A stretch of DNA of 12,621 nucleotides from Omnitrophica bacterium GWA2_52_8 (GTDB lineage: Bacteria > Omnitrophota > Omnitrophia > Omnitrophales > Aquincolibacteriaceae): contig MHFC01000031.1 of assembly GCA_001804025.1 (NCBI GenBank), positions 1 to 12,621 of the forward strand, written 5' to 3'. Below the pieces are notes generated by a model, which worked only from the letters and a program-made list of their open reading frames with translations, searched no databases and was not told where the DNA came from. This document shows, piece by piece, positions 581 through 12,621 of this stretch. Both the position numbers and the translations under genes were made by a program. Within the stretch, counting starts at the first letter, position 1. Every line of letters begins with the position of its first letter.

Positions 581-1039
581 ATGAAATTCCGGTTCATCCT
601 TTTATTTTTTTTGTTGCTTCTTTCTTTTCCGGCCTACGCGAAGAAAGAGGACGAAGGTAGTCGTGCGACCCTTCATGCCCCCACGGATGTCCAGCCGTAC
701 CCCCATCAAATATTCGAGTCTCAAACGCAAAAGGGAACGACGATTCACGGCCAGGTCTACCGGCCGCGTGAAAATCTCGTTGTTTTAGAAATGATGCCGG
801 AATGGAAAAAAAGCCATAAACCGAAACCAACCAAAAGCGCCCGCAAACAACCCGGCGAAGCCCAAGAAGCCCCCGTCATCAAGTCCGTGCGGCTGAAAAC
901 CGAAAGCGGAAAAGTTTATGAGACCGAAATCCGCCGCGTGCCTTCATGGTTCATGCCGACTGCACGGCAAAATTATCAGACACCCGCCGGTCAAACTGCG
1001 GCGCCGGTGTCACGGGCCGGCGAAGAAAAGGCCCCGTGA
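581..1039 (+). CDS. small exported basic protein, unknown function
   Basis: A 152-residue protein that I do not recognise. It begins MKFRFILLFFLLLLSFPAYA, a classical signal peptide with a likely cleavage after Ala20, so it should be exported. The mature part has no cysteines. Around residues 45-70 it is beta-prone (TTIHGQVY, ENLVVLEMM), followed by a Lys/Pro-rich stretch at 71-95 (KKSHKPKPTKSARK) and a second possible beta segment (IKSVRLKTESGKVYETEIRRV, split by a Gly-Lys turn). The C-terminal 25 residues are rich in Ala, Gln and Pro. It is the first gene of an apparent operon: its TGA stop overlaps the ATG of the giant downstream gene (ATGA at 1039), which implies translational coupling. 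The start is chosen for the signal peptide; no strong ribosome binding site is visible. A role as a small periplasmic or surface partner of the giant protein is inferred from position only. Confidence 0.75.
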   Translation: MKFRFILLFFLLLLSFPAYAKKEDEGSRATLHAPTDVQPYPHQIFESQTQKGTTIHGQVYRPRENLVVLEMMPEWKKSHKPKPTKSARKQPGEAQEAPVIKSVRLKTESGKVYETEIRRVPSWFMPTARQNYQTPAGQTAAPVSRAGEEKAP

Positions 1040-4000
1040 TGAAAAGGCCGCTCTTGCTTTTTATCCTGATTTTTTTAGGGGCCTTCCACCCTCGGGCCTG
1101 GGCCACCTACGAACATGAAGAAAGCCGCGGAGAATCCCATGCAGGGGCGGGCGCAGCCGTCGGGATTTTTACGGCGCTGCTCCAGCAAAGTTTGCAAAAA
1201 GAAGAAGAGGAAAAGGAGCCCGAGCCCCCGCCTGTTGTCACGGTCGTCGAAGTCCCGGCTGACGAAGAATTGAAAGGCCCTTGCCATGCGGAAGTGGAAG
1301 TCGAACACCCGGATAAAAAAGAACCCTATGTTTTTGATGTGCAAATTTATATTCCGCCCTCCGCCGCCGACGCTTTCGCCTGCTGCGAAATGCGGTCGCT
1401 GGAGTTTGTCAACCGATGGCAGCATCCGCTCGAATTTCGCGTTGAAAAAGCCCCGGGCAAAGTCGTCGGTCCCGGCGAGAGCATCCGGCTGGAAGGCAAA
1501 TGGGGGGAGTGTGTCCGCGTCACGGCTTTGAGCCACGGCCAGCAGGGAAAAACCGGCGAACATTTAGTGATCGAAGACCAGCGTTTTTGCTGCAATGAAC
1601 TGAGGACAAAAGGCGCAGGCCGTTTTACGGCGATGCAACTCGTGGACTTTTCCCTCGAGGAAAAAACGCCGCCGTGCAAGCAAGCCGAAGAGTTCCAGTT
1701 GATTTGCTGCGAAGCCTGCCCCGGCCGTCTCGGGGATCGGTTTTATTCGCCGCTCCCTCCGGATACCGAATGCCAGCCCGGCGATATCCGCCACGACGAA
1801 CTGGTCTTCGGCGAAAAGGATTGCGCCAATCCGATGCTTGAGCCCCAATATTATCCCGGGCCCATTATCCCGAATCCGGCCTGTCCTTATAAAGAAGAAG
1901 GTTCGTGTCCGCCGGAATACCGGCCTTGTTCGGCCCAGCCGCGGGCATGTTTTGAAGGATTTGTGGACAAGTGCATTCAAACGGAAACCTGCCGGTATGC
2001 TTGCTGTCAGTGTGTTCCCGAGACCACCACCACCACGACTACCGGCCAGTGCCCGTCTGATTACAATGCCTGCGGTTCTCCAGCTGAATGCGGCGAAGGC
2101 ATGAAGCAAGAGTGCACTCAAACGGAAACGTGCGAAAAGCCCTGCTGCCGCTGCGTGCCGGAAACCGTGACAAAAGACCAATGCCCGGCGGGGTACAATC
2201 CTTGCGGTTCTCCAGCTGAATGCGGTGAAGGCATGAAGCAAGAGTGCACTCAAACGGAAACTTGCGAAAAGCCCTGCTGCCGCTGCGTGCCGGAAACCGT
2301 GACAAAAGACCAATGCCCGGCGGGGTACAATCCTTGCGGGGACCAGGTTGCCTGCGCCGAAGGGTCTACGCGCCAGTGCGTGCGTGTGGAGTCGTGTCCC
2401 GATGAATGCTGCAAATGCGAGCCAAAGACAAAAGATCAAAACTATTGTCCCGATGACTATCCGCCGTGCGGCACGCCGGCGGAATGTCCCGAAGGTTTCA
2501 CGCCGGATTGTGTCCAGGTTTCGACCTGTCCGGAAGCTTGCTGCCGGTGTGTTCCGGCGGTGGAAGAAAATTATTGCCCGGCCGGGTATCCGCCGTGCGG
2601 TACGCCGGCGGAATGTCCCGAAGGTTTCACGCCGGATTGTGTCCAGGTTTCGACCTGTCCGGAAGCCTGCTGCCGGTGTGTTCCGGCGGTGGAAGAAAAT
2701 TATTGCCCGGCCGGGTATCCGCCGTGCGGTACGCCGCCGCCCGTTTGTCCGGATCGATCCGTGCTGCAATGCATCCAGACGGCAGCCTGTCCTGAAAAAT
2801 GCTGCAAGTGCGTGCCCGTCGACGACGATGAAGACTGCCCTCCCGGTTATCCTCCGTGCGGGACTGTTCTTGAATGTCCCGAAAGCTTCACGCGCCACTG
2901 CATTAAAGTGCCTGCCTGTCCGGAGGAATGCTGCAAATGCGAACCTTCGGACAAACGGTCCTGTCCGCCGGGGTTTGGGCCCTGCACGCCGGATCCGATT
3001 CAGTGTCCGCCGGATACTGTTAAGGAATGCGTACCGTCACCGGATTGTCCGTATGATTGCTGCCGGTGCGTTAAACCGCCTCCGCCGCCGTGCGACTGCT
3101 CTTGTGATTTGACGGATGACCTGGATCCTTATCAACCGATCGAAGGCAATCTTGTTTCGCCCGCGGAAACGCCCGAACCGCTGCGGATTCCTTTGAGGGC
3201 GCAGCTGCCGCTTGTCGCGAACGCTTCCGATACCGATTTATTGAAATTGATATGCGAGAAAACATCCCGGGGCGGCGATCATTGCGAGCCTCCCTGCGCG
3301 TCGGAAGACGCTTTGGTTTTTCCGATAAACGCCGAGTATGGCTGGGAAATTGTCCAGGGCGAGGGGGTTCTCGTTTCCGATCCGGCGCCGCCGCTTGCGG
3401 GAGCGAAAACAGCCGCCGGTCCGGCCACGATTTATGTGGCGCCTTCGCATCTGCCGCCCGACCCGAGGGTGCGGATCGAGCTGACCCTGTCGGATGATTC
3501 CCGGCATCGGCGCAATGCGCCTGACGGGTCCCAAAAAATCGAGGTCCGTTTCGAATTGACGGACGAAATTGAAAAAGTGGAAATTCCTTTTGGCAGCGGC
3601 AAGCCGCCCTGGGCCGATGCCCCCAAACCGCCGCCGTCCGATTGCTCCTGCCGGCCGGAAAAAGAATGGGAAGTGAATGGCGGGCTTTCCGGCCCCGATG
3701 GCGAAGAGCGCTATGTGATGTGCGCCGGCCATCATCTTGTGCTTTCCAATTGGGCTAAGGACGGGGATGAATACACGCTGCGCTGCAGCGATCCTGAATG
3801 CGGCCGGCCTGAGAAAAAAGACGCTCAGGACGATCCCATTCTTTACCGCTGGGCTGCCTCGGCGGGAGCCATTATCGGGGAATCGGATAAAATCGTTTTC
3901 CGGGCCCCCGCCGAAGCCGGCCGGGTGAGGGTCTCTCGGAGTGCTTCCGACAGCGGGATGCAGGCGCGTGACGGGGGCAAGGACTTTGCGCCGGTTACAA

Positions 4001-6435
4001 TCGATGTTATCAAAGTAGATTTGCAGGCGGAGGGCATCAAGGAAGAAGACGAGATCACACGGGGCGCACTCGTGGCCTACAATAAGGACAACGACGATTT
4101 TAACGCCGCGGGCGCGGTCTTCAATTACGACCCCGACCGTGAACAAAATGAAGTGGCCGGAGAAGACGATCTAAAGGAAGTGGTGCTCGATATTCAGATG
4201 GGAGAGGTCAACGAAGGCGAAGTGAGGTTTGAAATTGCCGAAGGCGCGGACGGCGAGAACGCCAAACTCAAAGTTTGGGATAGCCTGGAGAAAAGGAATC
4301 CCGTGCTGAACGGCACAACCCGCGTCAAAAGCTGGAGCGCCGCCGAGTTCAAGGCGCTGCCACAGCCGGTCCGTTTCTATGTGGAAGGCTTCAACCGCTC
4401 CGACAAGGTGAAAGATGCGGAGCTTCGCCTGATTTATGCCCGTCAGGCCGGCGCTGAGCCGATGTGTTTGGACCGCATCAAATATACGGTCTTCGAACTT
4501 CTTTTGGATGCAGACCGCGACGACGCGTTGACGGATGACAATAGCACATATCTTCCCGGTTACGATTCGGCCGGCCGCCCACGGATCGCGGCACCCGCAG
4601 GCGAACACTTGACGCGCTTGATCGCCGCACCGCTCAATGAAAAAGTAGCGGACATCGCACGCTTTGTGATCTTCCAGACCACGAATTTCCACGGCATGGC
4701 CATGAATCGCGGGAATATAGAGGACAATGATTATTCTTTCGAAGCGGGCGGCGATATTCTGGAAAAAGCTGCCGAAGGTTTTGCGGACGATCGGGCGCGC
4801 ATGGATTTCTTTGTGCGCGATTACGGCGGCGAGAGCCGGCAAGAGGTGGCTTTGGCGCGTGATGGGATATTTTTGGCCTCCGCGGAATTGCGCGTGCCGT
4901 TCGATACCGACCGTGATCATTTGCCTGATGTTTGGGAAAGGCAATATGCGGGTTTTGACCCCCGCAATCGGGATACAGACGGCGACGGGCGGCAGGATGG
5001 CGCAGAAGATGACGACGCCACGCCCGTGGTGACCGGCGCGCCGGCCCAGGGGCTTACCGGCGACGGCCTGGCCGCGCGGGAAGAATATCGCGGCTTTTTC
5101 CACGGCGAGCCCGACAATACCGGCCATCGCCATTACCGGACCGCGCCGGACACAAAAGATCTCTTTATTCATAGCACAGTCTCTGAAGGTGTGACCAATT
5201 TGGGAATTGCGCACCTGCATACGGCCAATCTGCCGCTTCGCGCCTACCGTATCAATGGAGAAGAATGGCTGAGCCGCTCGACCAAACAGATTAATTTCAA
5301 TGCCCTTCCGGAAACGATGCTCCAGCGCGCTCTGGACCTCGACGTCAGTCCAGTCATTGATCCGACTCTTTTTGGGCTGGCTTATCCCGGAGGCATTGAC
5401 ACGGGCGCCAACGGTGTTTGCGAGACGCCGGCAGTTCCAGACGACAGCCAGGTGATTCCGATCGGGCGGGGTAATCCGGGATCGGTGATCATCACGGCCG
5501 GGCGCAACGGTTATCTTGAAATCCTTCTCGGCGGCGATGATGTGCGCGACGGCCATCTGGTGCGCACAGGCCCGGACGGCATTTTGAATACCGTGCCTCA
5601 TCCTGATGATGCCCCTGTTTTCCTTCAAGGGCAGGGCGAAGCGAACCGTCTTATGATTCGTCCCGGTCCCGGCGAAGCGGCGCTTAAAACCCCACATGCC
5701 AGCGGCGATGACGTGTTAGGCGGCAATCAGATCACGACGGGACCTAACGGGATTGCAGAAACGGCCGCGGCGGAGGGCGACGAACAAGTGATCGCGGTTG
5801 GCCGGGGCGATCCGAATACGGTCGGTATCCGTCCGGGCGCCAACGGGATTTTAGATCCGGTGCGTGCCGGTGATGATGAACTTTCGGGCGATGTTATCAC
5901 TTCCGGAGTGGACGGCATTGCAAATACGGCCGCACTTGCCGGCGACGATCAGAAAATCCCCGTCGGGCAAGGTGAACCGCATGCGCTTTGTGTACGACGC
6001 GGTTCGCTCAATAACTATGAGCGCAAAAGCGTGCCGGTGCCGGATGACGAAGCCCAGGACACGGCCGCGAACCGGGTCAATGAAAGTCCGAATGAGCATG
6101 CCACCCTTTGGATTTATATTCCGACGTTCCACAACATTTTTCACACCTTCGGCAGTGACGGGATTTGGCAGGGCGGTCCCGGCGCGCCCGGAAGCGACGA
6201 CGTGGACGTCGATTTAATGGGCGCTGCCAATCAGGCGCGCCGTCACGATTGGATCCGCAAAACGATGACGCACGAAGGCGGGCATGGCATTCACATCAAT
6301 CACTACAGGCCGCCGGCCGCTCCCGGGCATGCAGTCCCCTGGAGCGTCATGCGTAGCGGCATTTGGGGGTTGGCGGCTCCCGCCAATTATGATGCCACTG
6401 ACGGGGACCAACGCCGGTTGCATTTGAAACATTAA
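1039..6435 (+). CDS. giant exported multidomain metzincin-type metalloprotease with nine 8-Cys repeats
   Basis: A protein of about 1798 residues. The frame is open from 946, but ATG 1039 is preferred: it overlaps the previous stop, has AAGG 7 nt upstream, and gives a clear signal peptide (MKRPLLLFILIFLGAFHPRAWA, cleavage near residue 22). Order of parts: a Glu/Pro-rich segment (about 50-75); a Cys-containing beta-prone region (about 80-285); nine tandem 8-Cys repeats (290-677) with a seven-Thr linker after the first; a proline run and CDCSC; two PKD/Ig-like segments (about 760-840 with YGWEI and IYVAP, and about 930-995 with YRWAA and VFRAP); beta-rich sequence; a calcium-binding-type segment (1289-1325, DTDRDHLPDVWE then DTDGDG) and GDGLAAREEY at 1341; KDLFIH at 1373; a 55-residue Gly/Asp repeat (1453-1656); and a C-terminal protease signature. 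The last is HEGGHGIHINH (H1745, E1746, H1749, H1755) followed by SVMRSG with Met1771, which matches metzincin zinc binding plus Met-turn. The usual Gly at position 8 of that motif is His. Substrate is unknown. The signal peptide and motifs are seen; surface or secreted proteolysis is inferred. Confidence 0.85.
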   Translation: MKRPLLLFILIFLGAFHPRAWATYEHEESRGESHAGAGAAVGIFTALLQQSLQKEEEEKEPEPPPVVTVVEVPADEELKGPCHAEVEVEHPDKKEPYVFDVQIYIPPSAADAFACCEMRSLEFVNRWQHPLEFRVEKAPGKVVGPGESIRLEGKWGECVRVTALSHGQQGKTGEHLVIEDQRFCCNELRTKGAGRFTAMQLVDFSLEEKTPPCKQAEEFQLICCEACPGRLGDRFYSPLPPDTECQPGDIRHDELVFGEKDCANPMLEPQYYPGPIIPNPACPYKEEGSCPPEYRPCSAQPRACFEGFVDKCIQTETCRYACCQCVPETTTTTTTGQCPSDYNACGSPAECGEGMKQECTQTETCEKPCCRCVPETVTKDQCPAGYNPCGSPAECGEGMKQECTQTETCEKPCCRCVPETVTKDQCPAGYNPCGDQVACAEGSTRQCVRVESCPDECCKCEPKTKDQNYCPDDYPPCGTPAECPEGFTPDCVQVSTCPEACCRCVPAVEENYCPAGYPPCGTPAECPEGFTPDCVQVSTCPEACCRCVPAVEENYCPAGYPPCGTPPPVCPDRSVLQCIQTAACPEKCCKCVPVDDDEDCPPGYPPCGTVLECPESFTRHCIKVPACPEECCKCEPSDKRSCPPGFGPCTPDPIQCPPDTVKECVPSPDCPYDCCRCVKPPPPPCDCSCDLTDDLDPYQPIEGNLVSPAETPEPLRIPLRAQLPLVANASDTDLLKLICEKTSRGGDHCEPPCASEDALVFPINAEYGWEIVQGEGVLVSDPAPPLAGAKTAAGPATIYVAPSHLPPDPRVRIELTLSDDSRHRRNAPDGSQKIEVRFELTDEIEKVEIPFGSGKPPWADAPKPPPSDCSCRPEKEWEVNGGLSGPDGEERYVMCAGHHLVLSNWAKDGDEYTLRCSDPECGRPEKKDAQDDPILYRWAASAGAIIGESDKIVFRAPAEAGRVRVSRSASDSGMQARDGGKDFAPVTIDVIKVDLQAEGIKEEDEITRGALVAYNKDNDDFNAAGAVFNYDPDREQNEVAGEDDLKEVVLDIQMGEVNEGEVRFEIAEGADGENAKLKVWDSLEKRNPVLNGTTRVKSWSAAEFKALPQPVRFYVEGFNRSDKVKDAELRLIYARQAGAEPMCLDRIKYTVFELLLDADRDDALTDDNSTYLPGYDSAGRPRIAAPAGEHLTRLIAAPLNEKVADIARFVIFQTTNFHGMAMNRGNIEDNDYSFEAGGDILEKAAEGFADDRARMDFFVRDYGGESRQEVALARDGIFLASAELRVPFDTDRDHLPDVWERQYAGFDPRNRDTDGDGRQDGAEDDDATPVVTGAPAQGLTGDGLAAREEYRGFFHGEPDNTGHRHYRTAPDTKDLFIHSTVSEGVTNLGIAHLHTANLPLRAYRINGEEWLSRSTKQINFNALPETMLQRALDLDVSPVIDPTLFGLAYPGGIDTGANGVCETPAVPDDSQVIPIGRGNPGSVIITAGRNGYLEILLGGDDVRDGHLVRTGPDGILNTVPHPDDAPVFLQGQGEANRLMIRPGPGEAALKTPHASGDDVLGGNQITTGPNGIAETAAAEGDEQVIAVGRGDPNTVGIRPGANGILDPVRAGDDELSGDVITSGVDGIANTAALAGDDQKIPVGQGEPHALCVRRGSLNNYERKSVPVPDDEAQDTAANRVNESPNEHATLWIYIPTFHNIFHTFGSDGIWQGGPGAPGSDDVDVDLMGAANQARRHDWIRKTMTHEGGHGIHINHYRPPAAPGHAVPWSVMRSGIWGLAAPANYDATDGDQRRLHLKH
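1906..3069 (+). repeat. nine tandem 8-cysteine repeats (about 42-48 residues each)
   Basis: The first Cys codons of the nine units are at 1906, 2050, 2182, 2314, 2446, 2575, 2704, 2836 and 2962. The consensus is C-x6-C-x5/6-C-x7-C-x5-C-x3-C-C-x-C, with CPxGYxPCG at the front and CPExCCxCVP at the back. All eight cysteines are kept in every unit, as expected for four disulfides in an exported protein. Units 2/3 (period 132) and 5/6 (period 129) are nearly identical at DNA level. I do not recognise the domain; the spacing resembles small knottin-like modules only in a general way. Confidence 0.9.
5395..6006 (+). repeat. about 3.7 copies of a 55-residue Gly/Asp-rich repeat
   Basis: Units begin at 5395, 5560, 5731 and 5896 (periods 165, 171, 165 bases). 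Each follows the pattern I-T-G-x-[ND]-G-I-x-x-T-A, then DD/DE-Q-x-I-x-V-G-x-G-x-P, then I-x-P-G-x-N-G-I-L, then GDD. The DNA is well diverged, so the repeat is old compared with the Cys units. It lies between the KDLFIH segment and the HExxH motif, so it is probably a surface insertion or spacer in the protease region. A calcium-binding role is possible from the Asp/Gly pattern but unproven. Confidence 0.75.
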
Positions 6436-6445
6436 AAGGGAAAAA

Positions 6446-6470
6446 GGCCAGGTTGCTTTCCGGCCGGGAG
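6446..6470 (+). promoter_or_regulatory. intergenic hairpin plus Shine-Dalgarno before the third operon gene
   Basis: GGCC(A)GG at 6446-6452 pairs with CCGGCC at 6460-6465 around a 7-nt loop with one bulged A. GGGAG (6466-6470) follows immediately and is 9 nt before ATG 6480, an ideal ribosome binding site that decides this start. With no T tract, the hairpin is more likely an mRNA stability or processing element than a terminator, and lets the downstream gene be set apart from the giant. Confidence 0.4.
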
Positions 6471-6479
6471 AAAAGGGCA

Positions 6480-7373
6480 ATGCATTTTATGAAACATTCA
6501 GCTTATTTCCGCGCTTTTGGCCTTTGTTTTGTCTTATTCGCTGCCGTGAGTACCCGGCTTGAAGCGGCTCACGAAGTGGAAGCGGATTTTCGGCTGCAGG
6601 GGACCTGGCCGTCCTTTCCGCAAGTCATGGCCGAAGAGGAGACCGCGGCTGCTGGCGGTCCCGTTTTTTTCAGAGACCAGGACCAGGCCGTGCGGGGCGT
6701 GCTGCGGCTTAGAAATTTGGATGCGGAACCTCTGCGGCTGGAAGAGCACCGCACGAAGTGGACGGATTTTTTGTACGCAGAATTGAAAAAGAACGGCCAG
6801 CGCATGGACTCCGGCAGTTACCGCATCCTTTGGGGCAAGCCTGCGGCTTCCAAAGACGTCCGCAAATTACATCCTGGAGAAACGGTGGAATTGCCGTTTG
6901 AAATCGAAACGGCGGGCGCGGGGGACTCCAAAATCCTGCCCGAAGGGCAGTACCGCATTAAGATCGGGCTGAACACGCTGGAAGTCTCCGTCCTGACGCC
7001 GCTGCGGATCGAAACCGGGTTCCGGAACTTCCGGGTGAAAAACATCGAAAGCCGCGAAGAACGGTTCAATTATTTCGAATACCTTTATCAGCGCGCGTTT
7101 GAAGAAAAAAACGAGGCGCAAATGCGGACGCTGCTGGAAGAAATGATTACGAGAGAGCCGGCGGATGATTTGACTCTGGCCCGGCTCGGGGACTTTTATT
7201 TTTTTAAAGGGGAGTATGCGCAGGCCTTGCCTTTTTTTGAAAGGCTCCTAAAAACGCTGGAAACCGGCGGCCGAAAGAGGCTGCTCGGCTGGCAAAGTGA
7301 ATATTTAAGCGAAGAAGAAATCCTTGAGCTTGCACGCGGGAAGGCCGAAGCCGCCCGCCGTTTGGCGGTTTAA
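6480..7373 (+). CDS. exported protein with Ig-like (BsuPI-like) domain and TPR-like helices
   Basis: A protein of about 297 residues, starting at ATG 6480 behind GGGAG. ATG 6489 is an alternative, and a TTG at 6453 is rejected because it would lengthen the signal peptide and lies in the hairpin. The N-terminus has a hydrophobic signal peptide (AFGLCFVLFAAVS, cleavage near LEA-AHE, about residue 27). Residues about 68-167 are beta-rich: VLRLRNLDAEPLRL, then LHPGETVELPFEI, then LPEGQYRIKI. This order (a free-ligand strand, L-x-PGE-T, then P-x-G-x-Y) resembles the Ig-like BsuPI fold named after the Bacillus intracellular proteinase inhibitor; the similarity is a hint. Residues about 190-260 are helical with one clear TPR-like unit (LARLGDFYFFKGEYAQALPFFERLL). 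It follows the giant protease after 44 nt and is probably co-transcribed. A role as partner, inhibitor or assembly factor of the protease is possible but not shown. Confidence 0.75.
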   Translation: MHFMKHSAYFRAFGLCFVLFAAVSTRLEAAHEVEADFRLQGTWPSFPQVMAEEETAAAGGPVFFRDQDQAVRGVLRLRNLDAEPLRLEEHRTKWTDFLYAELKKNGQRMDSGSYRILWGKPAASKDVRKLHPGETVELPFEIETAGAGDSKILPEGQYRIKIGLNTLEVSVLTPLRIETGFRNFRVKNIESREERFNYFEYLYQRAFEEKNEAQMRTLLEEMITREPADDLTLARLGDFYFFKGEYAQALPFFERLLKTLETGGRKRLLGWQSEYLSEEEILELARGKAEAARRLAV

Positions 7374-8127: not shown

Positions 8128-8499
8128 AAACCGATGGCGCTCGACCATATCCCGTGCATTCTCTCGGCCTGCGACGGGCTGATGGTCGCGCGGGGCGACC
8201 TCGGGATTGAACTCGGGGTCGAAAAAGTTCCGGTGATCCAGAAAAAACTGATCTGGATTGCAAGCCGCAACCGGGTGCCCGTGATTACGGCGACGCAGAT
8301 GCTGGAATCCATGATGCATAGTGCCCGCCCGCTCAGGGCGGAAGTCTCCGACGTCGCCAACGCTGTTTTTAACGGCACGGACAGGGTCATGTTGTCCGGC
8401 GAGACGGCGATCGGAGAGCATCCGGTCGAGACCGTTCAAATGATGGCGAAAATCATCCTCGAAGCCGAATCCTATGTCCGCATCGGAAACCGGTATTAA
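8128..8499 (+). pseudogene. pyk: 5'-truncated pyruvate kinase copy
   Basis: Pyruvate kinase similarity runs from Lys-Pro at 8128 (KPMALDHI) through the Mg-binding region [12 protein letters not shown], the conserved [12 protein letters not shown] and the [15 protein letters not shown] segments, to the TAA stop at 8497-8499. Immediately upstream are two in-frame TGA codons (8122-8127). The catalytic segment normally reading AKIEKP, with the essential Lys and the first Mg-ligand Glu, is missing, as is everything N-terminal. The longest ATG frame is 8134-8499 (121 residues) and has no ribosome binding site. Compared with the left copy, the conserved stretch has Asp to Asn and Met to Arg changes. 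It ends at the same point before the C-terminal domain as the left copy. This is almost certainly a non-functional duplicate; a translated partial barrel would not be catalytic. Confidence 0.85.
8303..8499 (+). repeat. direct repeat, right copy (pyruvate kinase tail)
   Basis: Matches 1-197 at about 97.5% with no gaps. The pyruvate kinase similarity of this copy continues left to about 8128, beyond what the window shows of the left copy, so the true repeat may be longer, up to about 370 bases. The right limit is sharp: sequences after the two stop codons are unrelated. Confidence 0.93.
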
Positions 8500-8596
8500 A
8501 AAACGTTAAAGCCTGCACTGCGCGCCGTTCGAAACCGCTTATTTTTTTATCTCCGCAGTGAAATTTTATCTGATCAATTCCTAACATCCGAAAACA

Positions 8597-8701: not shown

Positions 8702-11700
8702 ATGGTTCAACACACCCCCCGGCCAAGCGACTATAAAAAGGAAGCGTTCTCCGCAGTTCAAAAACTCATCGCTATTTTTTTGTCCCTTTCTTTAATCCTT
8801 TCAGAAAGCTTTGCATACGGGCAAACAATCCAGATAGCAGATACCAGGCCGCAAGCGGCAGATAATGCTGCTGCCGTTCTTTCAATTCCCGCGGAACTGG
8901 GCCATGTGGAAGAGGCCTACTTTCAGCATACGAGCAGCCGGCAGTCCGCCAGCGGTTTTTCTTCCGCAGTGATTTATATCCAGGACGCTCACGACTCCGT
9001 TGAAGCTCAAAAAAATATTGCGCGGATCATCCGGTATCTTGTGGCCCGTTACGGGGTAAAAACGGTTCTTGAAGAAGGATACGAAGGCCCCGTGCCGACG
9101 GAGGATTATTTCGGATTTATTCAGGATGCCGCAGTCAAACGTAAGGTCGCCGGTGTTTTTATGGACCGGCTCATGCTCGGCGGGGCGGAATACGCGCATA
9201 TCAATCGTGACCGCGACTTTGATCTCGTCGGCGCGGACGATGCGAAATTATTTACGGAGAACATCGAATGGTACCGTGAGGCCGCAAAAGAAAAAGACCA
9301 GACCGCCGCGGAACTTGCGGATTTGCAGGAGCATATCGGACGGCTGGCAGGCCGGAGATTTCCCACAGCACTGAAGAAATGGATGAAGCTCCGCGATAAA
9401 TTCGACAAAGGCCTCCTGAACCTGCCGGATTATGTCAGACAATTCAGCAGGATCGAAGCGCCTCTTGCCGGGTCCCATATGGAAATGCTGCTGCGGGCCC
9501 TAAACAGCGCCGGACCTGAAAGTCTTCGCACGGCCGAAGAGATTGACCCTAAAAAGCTCTTCCTGGAAATCGAGGAAGCCGAAAACCGTCTCGCCTTCGA
9601 ACAGCTGCAGCACGACGTTCAGAAAGAAATCTTCCGTGCCTACAGGGAAATCCGTTTAGTCGGACGCCTCAACAATATCGAAATGACTTATGACGAGTTT
9701 GCGGCCGTCCGGCCGGCGCTCGACACGCTGCGTACGTCCGGGATTGCGGAACTGATGGTCCGGGAAACGGGCAAATCCGTGGTGTTGTCCAAACGCTGGG
9801 AACGTGTCATCGGCCGGGCCGTGAGATTTTACGAACTTGCCCGGGCGCGTGAACGGGCGGTGGAAAAGAGTCTTGAGTTTTGGGTCGGGAGTCGTGAGAA
9901 TTTTAGCGGGGATTTCACCCAAGATACACGACGCCGGACGCGCGGCAATGTGGTGCTCGTCTTCGGGGGATTTCACAAGGGCAGCTTGACCGAAATGTTT
10001 AAGAAAAACGGATACAACTATATCGTCATCACGCCGCGCATGACCGAAGTGGACATGAAACATCAGGCGCTCTACCGCCGGCTCATGACGGCAGGACTCC
10101 CGGATTTTAATTCGTTACCGGGACCGGCCAACGCGGCGCGGTTTGTTCCGGTCTTCGGCGCGGAGTATCTCGGCCGCCGCAGCGAGGCCCGCGCCCTTGT
10201 CCGGCGCGTGGCCGCAAGGTTCGGAGCCGAATCATCGCCGGAAAACAGCGCTGTCAAAACACCGGCCGGCGAGCGTTCTGATGCGCGGACCCTGAAGCGC
10301 GGGGATTTGCCCTCGAAAACGGCGGCGGAGCTGGCGGAGGAATTTCTGCGGATCAGGGAAGAACGGGACGGTCATGTGCAAAAAATGGATGAATTGGATA
10401 GGGAGTTCCTGCGCCGGAGTCCCGCAGCGTACGGGGGGCTCGGGTTGTTTTTATTTGCCGGGGTGATTGCCGGAGGATGGATGGCAAAATTTCAGGGGCC
10501 GGCGAACGGCGGACAAATCGCCAGCCTTGTTTTTCTGGGCGCTTTTTTGACCGGCACAGCCTGGGCGATTTATCGTTTAGCGCCTACCACCCGTCCTTAT
10601 GCCGATCTTAAGAAATACGACGCGTCTCTTTCAGCAGATCTCCGGCAACGGCTCAAATTCCTGCTGTCGCGCATGGGAATTGAGAGTTCCGGTAAACGGG
10701 ATTATTGGGGTGTGGACACGGAGGTGATGGGGGATGTTTACTCACTGTTAGAGTCCTCCGGACGGGATTTGATACGGCACAAAGAACGTGTTCTTGAAAA
10801 AGTTGGAACCTACCGCCGTTTTCTTAACCGCTATCGTTTTCCCTGGAGCCCGGCGCGGCGCCTTGAACTTGAGCTGGGGATGCGCAAAGTGGCCGAAAAT
10901 TATGAAAATCTTGTCTTGGCCGCAGCGCGTGCGGCGGAAGCATCAAACTATTCTGTGAAAAAACATTGGGTTGATGAAATGATCCTTGCCGGCGACGGTT
11001 TGCAGTCTGCGGTGGACCGCTTCCTCGAAAAGGCAGGTCCTTCCTCCGCCAACCGCTCCGAGGGCCGTAGCGGAAATAAACGGCTTGAAGTTGTTCGGGG
11101 ACTCGGAATGCAGTTTGGGAACCTTAGTTATCAACAAGTGGCCGATTATTTTTTGCCTTATGAAGGATGGAATGCGCTTAAGCTGGGGGGTCTGATTCGG
11201 ACCGGTGCCTCTGCCTCGCCGGGACAGCCCAATGGTTATGCTTTTCAGGAAGAAGAAGAGCGAATTGTCCGTCGGGCCCTTCGCTCCGCTGCTGACGGCC
11301 CAAGCCGTGAGATTTTTCTTACGGCGTTTGCTCCCGGGGAAGGGTGGGAACTGAGATGGACCGGATTGACGCTGAAGAAGTTGCTGCAGGAGAATGGGAC
11401 TTCCGGAGAAACGGTCAGGGTTATTCTCACGGCCTTTGACAAGAGTTTCGAGGGGTTGCAAAAGCTCGATCGCGGAATGTTATTTTGGATTGAGGAGGAA
11501 AACAGGCGCGAATCCGCCCGCAAAGTTTTGTTTGAATATCGGGGCTTCTACGGAGATTTTAAAAACCGGGACCTTTGGGAAAACATGACAAAGGCCGTTC
11601 CTCCGTCCGCACTCATCTTTCTCCGGAATTCTGGAACGCGTCTTGATGGGGGAATCGAGGAATGGAAAGAACTTTCCCGCTTGCTTTGGGAGCGGGTGAC

Positions 11701-12621
11701 GCCTTCCGGAGCCCTGATTGTCGGGGAGAGTGCATGGAACTATGATGTGACGACACTGAACGAGTTGCATGCCGCCGAAATAAAAGCATCGGAGAATCAG
11801 CCCCCGCCTCTCAAGATTGCCCGCTCCGAAACGCGCGGGACGCCGTCCGGTGAAATTGACGGGCAGGCGCGGCAGGAGTTGCTGGAAGATATCGAAAGGC
11901 AACTTGTGCAAATTGCAATTTCTTCCGGCGACGGCAAGCGGCGGATTCTCCGCGACGACAAAAATTTTACGGTCCGGGCGGAGTTTGTACGGCTAAACCG
12001 GTTTGCCACGGTCCTTGTATCCCTAGTGCCTGAGGAAAACCGTGTCCGTATTACGGGATATTCCGACCTTCCGCTCGGTACGGACGGTTTTCAGGTGCAG
12101 GCGCTGGACGCGGAAGGGGAAGTGATTCCGGGTGTTGAGGCGGTTGCCGGAACATTCACCCTCGAGATGGAGGTGAGTTTGGACGGCGAATGGCAAGGGG
12201 CAAGAAAGCAGGTGCTTGATGCCGTCCGCAGTGCCAGAATCCGCCTCTGGCAGCATCTCTACCCTGAAGCTATGGCCGCCAAAATGGCCGAAGATGCGAA
12301 AGCTCCGGTTACCGATCCCTCCTCATTTGCGGTGCCTTCCGCCGATGACATTATCCGGTTCTATGAACAGCATGATGAAAACGGATGGATGCCGTTACCG
12401 TCCGGGGCAAAAGTGCCTGTCGGGATGCTCCAATTGGACCCCCGTATTTTGCAATGGTACCGCGGCCTCATCAATGACTTTGGCAGAAATCTTAATATTC
12501 TTTCCATCGGTTCGGGCCGCGGGCAATTGGAAAAAGCCCTTCAGGACGACGGTCATGACGTCACGGCGGTGGACATCAGCCGGAAAAATGCGGAATACTC
12601 AAAGAAACTTGGCGTCGAGAC
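8702..12621 (+). CDS. giant exported/membrane protein: TraB/ChaN-like, CheR-like and SAM methyltransferase parts (right end cut)
   Basis: The frame is open from ATG 8702 to the window edge (at least 1306 residues). The N-terminus has a basic stretch then LIAIFLSLSLILSESFAYG, a signal peptide or anchor. Residues about 90-440 look like the TraB/TIKI/ChaN/erythromycin-esterase-like superfamily: IYIQDAHDS (His97), KTVLEEGYEG (Glu124/125) and VLVFGGFHKG (GxxH, His425). These fit the two His motifs and early Glu of that fold. Two hydrophobic segments follow (about 576-597 and 604-627). Residues about 870-1020 resemble a CheR methyltransferase core with eroded SAM motif (EIFLTAFAPGEGWE, then VRVILTAFDKS, ALIFLRN, SGALIVGES). 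An unassigned beta-rich part (about 1060-1180) precedes a class I SAM methyltransferase start: ILSIGSGRGQLEKAL (glycine motif at about 1270) and VTAVDIS (about 1290). The gene has its own promoter and is separate from the left operon. Domain reading is by motif only; overall function is unknown. Confidence 0.8.
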   Translation, partial: MVQHTPRPSDYKKEAFSAVQKLIAIFLSLSLILSESFAYGQTIQIADTRPQAADNAAAVLSIPAELGHVEEAYFQHTSSRQSASGFSSAVIYIQDAHDSVEAQKNIARIIRYLVARYGVKTVLEEGYEGPVPTEDYFGFIQDAAVKRKVAGVFMDRLMLGGAEYAHINRDRDFDLVGADDAKLFTENIEWYREAAKEKDQTAAELADLQEHIGRLAGRRFPTALKKWMKLRDKFDKGLLNLPDYVRQFSRIEAPLAGSHMEMLLRALNSAGPESLRTAEEIDPKKLFLEIEEAENRLAFEQLQHDVQKEIFRAYREIRLVGRLNNIEMTYDEFAAVRPALDTLRTSGIAELMVRETGKSVVLSKRWERVIGRAVRFYELARARERAVEKSLEFWVGSRENFSGDFTQDTRRRTRGNVVLVFGGFHKGSLTEMFKKNGYNYIVITPRMTEVDMKHQALYRRLMTAGLPDFNSLPGPANAARFVPVFGAEYLGRRSEARALVRRVAARFGAESSPENSAVKTPAGERSDARTLKRGDLPSKTAAELAEEFLRIREERDGHVQKMDELDREFLRRSPAAYGGLGLFLFAGVIAGGWMAKFQGPANGGQIASLVFLGAFLTGTAWAIYRLAPTTRPYADLKKYDASLSADLRQRLKFLLSRMGIESSGKRDYWGVDTEVMGDVYSLLESSGRDLIRHKERVLEKVGTYRRFLNRYRFPWSPARRLELELGMRKVAENYENLVLAAARAAEASNYSVKKHWVDEMILAGDGLQSAVDRFLEKAGPSSANRSEGRSGNKRLEVVRGLGMQFGNLSYQQVADYFLPYEGWNALKLGGLIRTGASASPGQPNGYAFQEEEERIVRRALRSAADGPSREIFLTAFAPGEGWELRWTGLTLKKLLQENGTSGETVRVILTAFDKSFEGLQKLDRGMLFWIEEENRRESARKVLFEYRGFYGDFKNRDLWENMTKAVPPSALIFLRNSGTRLDGGIEEWKELSRLLWERVTPSGALIVGESAWNYDVTTLNELHAAEIKASENQPPPLKIARSETRGTPSGEIDGQARQELLEDIERQLVQIAISSGDGKRRILRDDKNFTVRAEFVRLNRFATVLVSLVPEENRVRITGYSDLPLGTDGFQVQALDAEGEVIPGVEAVAGTFTLEMEVSLDGEWQGARKQVLDAVRSARIRLWQHLYPEAMAAKMAEDAKAPVTDPSSFAVPSADDIIRFYEQHDENGWMPLPSGAKVPVGMLQLDPRILQWYRGLINDFGRNLNILSIGSGRGQLEKALQDDGHDVTAVDISRKNAEYSKKLGVE

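Follow-up and report, generated by a model that had tools for sequence, protein, structure and literature searches.

What does an array of nine eight-cysteine units do within a large bacterial protein, and does the unit belong to a family that already has a name? Both questions are raised by one gene in the stretch of 12,621 nucleotides from Omnitrophica bacterium GWA2_52_8 that was analysed here in full and is called the window (features in Table 1). Our analysis suggests that the array probably serves as a spacer, a string of disulfide-folded beads, within a large exported protein that carries a metallopeptidase-like head. On this reading a conserved N-terminal domain would be linked by the array to a core of Ig/PKD-like appearance and to the metallopeptidase-like (HExxH) domain at the C-terminus; the array would hold this head away from the cell or from a complex, and would replace the Pro/Ser/Thr-rich linker that occupies the position in two relatives. 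Export, the disulfides and the spacer role are what we infer; the evidence for each is given below.

Table 1. Features of the window around the array gene, with amino acid ranges (aa) counted in the array protein.
Feature	Coordinates	Strand	Remark
152-aa protein, signal-like start	581..1039	+	stop TGA overlaps the next ATG as TGATG
Array protein, 1798 aa	1039..6435, stop included (1039-6432 without stop)	+	six relatives found
Signal-peptide-like hydrophobic N-terminus, aa 1-22	1039..1104	+	by eye
N-terminal domain, aa 24-213	1108..1677	+	in 3 of 384 phylum genomes at E 1e-4
Pre-array segment, aa 214-289	1678..1905	+	almost entirely absent from P0004
Nine-unit eight-cysteine array, aa 290-677	1906..3069	+	
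Units 1-3	1906-2013, 2050-2154, 2182-2286	+	
Units 4-6	2314-2418, 2446-2550, 2575-2679	+	
Units 7-9	2704-2811, 2836-2940, 2962-3069	+	
Pro run and CDCSC cluster, aa 678-689	3070..3105	+	connects array and core
Core, aa 690-1000	3106..4038	+	Ig/PKD-like by appearance only
Middle region, aa 1001-1440	4039..5358	+	Asp-rich DTDGDG-type stretches
TGxNGI / GDD repeats, aa 1441-1655	5359..6003	+	
C-terminal metallopeptidase-like domain, aa 1656-1798	6004..6432	+	
HEGGHGIHINH motif, aa 1745-1755	6271..6303	+	
SVM, possible Met-turn, aa 1769-1771	6343..6351	+	
Downstream protein, signal-like start	6453..7373	+	weak TPR matches under cut-off

The original prediction described nine tandem units spaced C-x6-C-x5/6-C-x7-C-x5-C-x3-CC-x-C, and this was borne out: the spacing is kept in 9 of 9 units in one open frame. 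The strings proposed for the two ends of the unit stand as a majority consensus but are not constant, CPxGYxPCG being exact in five of the nine units and CPExCCxCVP in three; constant across all nine are CP, the eight cysteines and their spacing. Cysteines number 72 in the 388 array residues, compared with 27 in the remaining 1410 residues. A chance origin of the pattern was rejected, as none of 2000 shuffles of the array gave even one unit. The linkers between units are 7–12 residues long. Within each of the pairs 2/3 and 5/6, 97 of 105 bases are identical, and these units are apparently recent copies. The remaining 34 unit pairs have 6–23 of 35 third codon positions in common; since third positions have diverged in these pairs and the eight cysteines are kept in every unit, most of the repeat is likely to be old and constrained. 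Several non-cysteine positions of the unit are also well kept, and the variable positions, judged by their entropies, are scattered across it with no one loop standing out. Against the relative P0002 the array is 77% identical and the other parts 75–87%; for non-cysteine positions only, the array falls to 72% and the other parts to 75–86%. The array thus appears somewhat less constrained than its neighbouring parts, which fits a spacer. Relaxed constraint or diversification may lie behind the faster change at its non-cysteine positions.

The unit had been left outside any named family, and there it stays, as no Pfam, NCBIfam, PHROGs or PDB-sequence match reaches E 0.001. At E up to 1, Pfam gave 0 families for the array or the protein as a whole, and when 43 units were scanned one by one the sole match was EGF_Tme5, in one unit at E 0.016. 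NCBIfam and PHROGs returned 0 families for array or protein, NCBIfam returned 0 for the 43 units, and the PDB sequences gave one row only, at E 3.8. A strong match to TIL, VWC or a similar repeat had been named as the evidence against a new domain, and the Pfam search gave none. Assignment to any named family, whether TIL, VWC, WAP or another cysteine-rich Pfam family, bacterial or phage, was likewise rejected for want of a library match. The literature search, made by titles and with subscription papers mostly outside its reach, returned none on this eight-cysteine repeat. Going by the libraries and literature searched, the unit appears to be undescribed; tandem cysteine-rich or disulfide modules in large surface or secreted proteins are a kind already known.

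A model of units 6–8 (three units, 30 aligned rows) reached pLDDT 78 and pTM 0.41. Each unit is modelled with one beta-hairpin, for instance residues 18–23 and 32–37, with cysteines 4 and 6–8 on the strands, and four predicted disulfides inside each unit are plausible. No significant match was obtained in a fold search of this model (Foldseek, VIA). The arm had been proposed to be stiff, and this was not sustained: pTM is 0.41 despite the fair pLDDT, so the model gives no fixed orientation between units, and linker length varies. Beads with unfixed mutual orientation would suit the model. The hydrophobic start of the array protein, judged by eye, suggests its export, and the N-terminal starts of the six relatives are hydrophobic too. 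VKOR is encoded in the genome (one match over cut-off), and DsbB was not found in it at 82% completeness; because of the VKOR gene, oxidative folding is possible. Our guess is that resistance to proteases outside the cell, the protein's own head among them, may be the reason for beads instead of a floppy linker.

When about 5.8 billion proteins were searched with the array region, six relatives emerged, with 8, 8, 8, 8, 6 and 5 units, and a search of shorter proteins with the array alignment produced one more, a fragment with three full units. Both searches depend on five-residue words in common and on set limits of length, and may miss relatives that are distant, very short or very long. In the seven full-length proteins, the window's included, the unit number is therefore 9, 8, 8, 8, 8, 6 and 5. 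The same cysteine spacing recurs in 52 units across seven proteins, a count made with a pattern that required eight cysteines and so passes over degenerate units. One relative, P0001 (1755 residues), is the window's protein minus one unit of the 5/6 pair, plus a change of F44 to L; the missing unit may reflect either variation in copy number or an assembly in which two units were collapsed into one. Among 58 near genomes and 384 sampled phylum genomes, the array is present only in the window's own genome. A wider spread in the phylum was considered and rejected: at E 0.01, the 384 genomes yield three, the window's own with its nine units and G120 (E 0.008) and G312 (E 0.0007) with one weak piece each, of 23 positions in a 25-residue frame and of 25 positions in a 63-residue frame, and these single pieces are taken as probable chance matches. 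Scans of genome contigs and viral contigs for the whole protein found no relative with patterns drawn from the N-terminal part, near genomes possibly being left out of them.

The N-terminal domain reaches further than the array. At E 1e-4 it is found in the window's own genome and in G005 and G017, two genomes of the same family, and in both of the latter a Pro/Ser/Thr-rich stretch stands at the array's position. From the CC of the N-terminal domain to the next cysteine cluster there are 113 residues in G005 and 111 in G017, compared with 501 in the window. Pro, Ser and Thr make up 56% (G005) and 47% (G017) of the 75 residues that precede the cluster; for stretches of equal length in the window's protein the median is 19% and the maximum 37%. 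These two are the only complete genes known to have the N-terminal domain without the array, and in G017 the match to the window after the linker spans 90 core residues only, its cysteine cluster being chosen by eye. In G005 and G017, too, the related gene is preceded by one for a relative of the 152-residue protein. Core relatives in which no array can be seen occur in G316, G031, G004 and G005, those of G031 and G004 being cut by contig ends; G004 and G031 have Pro-rich sequence ahead of the core, but their frames begin at those ends. The proposed arm or spacer thus gains comparative support from the Pro/Ser/Thr-rich linker found in the same place in relatives.

A second comparison concerns what follows the array. 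P0003, P0004 and P0006 have the N-terminus and the array as in the window, but over the C-terminal parts their identity to the window's protein is about 20% (middle 21–25%, C-terminus 20–23%). Between the window and P0003, identity at non-cysteine positions is 64% in the N-terminal domain and 51% in the array, and then 31%, 21% and 19%. Across the array's end it goes from 51% to 31% for P0003, from 42% to 34% for P0004 and from 36% to 36% for P0006; the drop is clear only against P0003, and the join may therefore lie further on, or the core may just diverge faster. From the core on, P0003 is 51% identical over 755 residues, and P0006 47% over 758, to a protein of G031 in which no array is seen up to the point where its contig stops. 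The window's remainder is 36% identical over 902 residues to the protein of G316 (middle region 38% over 489 columns), a counterpart of the core and C-terminal part that has no array. As judged from these alignments, the N-terminus and array are combined with two kinds of C-terminal half. The TGxNGI / GDD repeats, which bear no Pfam name, were found again in large proteins among 24 matches.

HExxH occurs in the last 80 residues of all seven full-length proteins. In the window it is extended by a third ligand, HExxHxxxxxH, as HEGGHGIHINH, and similar forms are HEGGHGFHLDH (P0016), HECGHGCHVEH (P0015) and HEGSHACHLNH (G316). In P0003, P0004 and P0006 the HExxH stretches are of a different type and lack the third His at that distance. 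At position 8 of the metzincin motif Gly or Asn is expected; the window, P0002, P0005, P0016 and G316 have His instead. The protein of G017, with a different C-terminus, has HEVGHTQNGQHEDGEIM, with Asn at motif position 8. The SVM, which we take to be a possible Met-turn, is found in the window, P0002 and P0005 and is not clear in P0016 or G316. Pfam has no family for the window's C-terminus, and the G017 C-terminus meets Reprolysin_5 at E 0.044, under the Pfam cut-off. A C-terminal profile run against PDB sequences at E up to 10 gave only 6z2d and 6z2o, an O-glycan protease that is presumably OgpA; at E 0.057 this likeness is not significant, and it concerns the C-terminal domain alone, over the HExGHG stretch. 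The C-terminal fold model, built from four sequences, had pLDDT 31. With peptidase matches below significance and a failed fold model, 'metallopeptidase-like' is a reading of the motif, from which we infer zinc binding and catalysis by the C-terminal domain.

A spacer is the most economical account of the array, in view of the linker's position, the 5 to 9 units of the full-length proteins and the different heads. Alternatively, the units could bind a glycan, a protein or a mineral, with tandem avidity positioning the head on its substrate. The well-kept non-cysteine positions, Pro2 and Tyr5 above all, favor such a multivalent array, as does the positional matching of the end units: the window's first unit is matched best by the first unit in four of the six relatives, and its last by the last unit in five of six, one weakly. 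A gain of avidity reported for tandem cysteine-rich peptides (PMC6262176) points the same way. Nevertheless, binding would be lost with the low-complexity linkers that G005 and G017 have at the same place, and the range of 5 to 9 units also argues against it, so we regard binding as the main role as unlikely. A binding role on top of spacing is possible because several non-cysteine positions are well kept; their conservation would exceed the needs of a pure spacer.

It is quite improbable that the units are small protease inhibitors, silencing the C-terminal head or blocking foreign proteases. A cysteine-rich tandem beside a peptidase-like head does resemble TIL, WAP and pacifastin inhibitors as they are generally known, and outside the cysteines the array changes somewhat faster than the protein's other parts. 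However, none of such inhibitor families was matched, the variability is spread over the unit with no single loop conspicuous, and the C-terminal halves that accompany the array are of two kinds. Least likely of all, in our judgment, is a metal store or metal-binding polymer whose 72 cysteines hold metal instead of pairing. The CCxC in every unit and the density of cysteines, 72 per 388 residues, could be read in that way, but the signal-like start and the VKOR of the genome speak against it, and the fixed eight-cysteine spacing would better suit a folded module.

Several features of the surroundings were also observed. The array-less gene of G316 (L098 1610-7718) encodes 1384 residues with a lipobox-like start, judged by eye, and adjoins a 662-residue gene that has pieces in common with the 1384-residue protein, an apparent case of domain shuffling between neighboring genes. 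The 300-residue gene that follows this G316 version has no similarity by BLAST to the window's protein at 6453–7373. In the window, a 201-base direct repeat (97% identical), a fragment of pyruvate kinase at 1–201 and 8303–8503, flanks 8.3 kb of sequence that includes the array gene; contig C84 has a third piece of pyruvate kinase, which stops at the contig edge, and the open piece at 8134 is preceded by in-frame stops. A 1306-residue frame at 8702–12619 has a signal-like start and runs past the contig end; at its end it has a weak match to a methyltransferase, under the cut-off.

The spacer reading concerns a bacterial tandem module that is without a family match and occurs in few proteins, and whose fold may be undescribed. 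The relatives with linkers, together with the same arm on two C-terminal halves, form a natural experiment, so that a disulfide array can be compared directly with a floppy linker. Among extracellular building blocks, disulfide modules in tandem are familiar mainly from animals. We tentatively raise the possibility, with less confidence than the spacer itself, that a bacterial lineage invented its own EGF- or TNFR-like extracellular bead, with an eight-cysteine fold not described before, and strings it into an interchangeable arm that can replace disordered linkers and be fitted with different metallopeptidase heads.

Among known systems, TNFR (CD40) and EGF-type (Pvs25) modules head the Foldseek results for the three-unit model, in which no match is significant; we take both to be cysteine-rich proteins. 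TIL, VWC, WAP and granulin are small cysteine-rich modules that often occur in tandem, and none was matched to the unit by Pfam. The middle repeat region of CagY from Helicobacter pylori is a long polymorphic tandem repeat for which the published model has disulfides throughout (PMC10706595). CagY is, like the array protein, a large bacterial protein with a long tandem repeat; it has two cysteines per module between helices, whereas the unit here has eight and a modelled beta-hairpin, a comparison of architecture in which the sequences were not compared. The secreted cysteine-rich repeat proteins (SCREPs), a class with venom peptides at its center that spans diverse species (PMC6262176), are a descriptive class and not a homologous family; their general architecture, secreted tandem modules rich in cysteine, is the one predicted for the protein described here.
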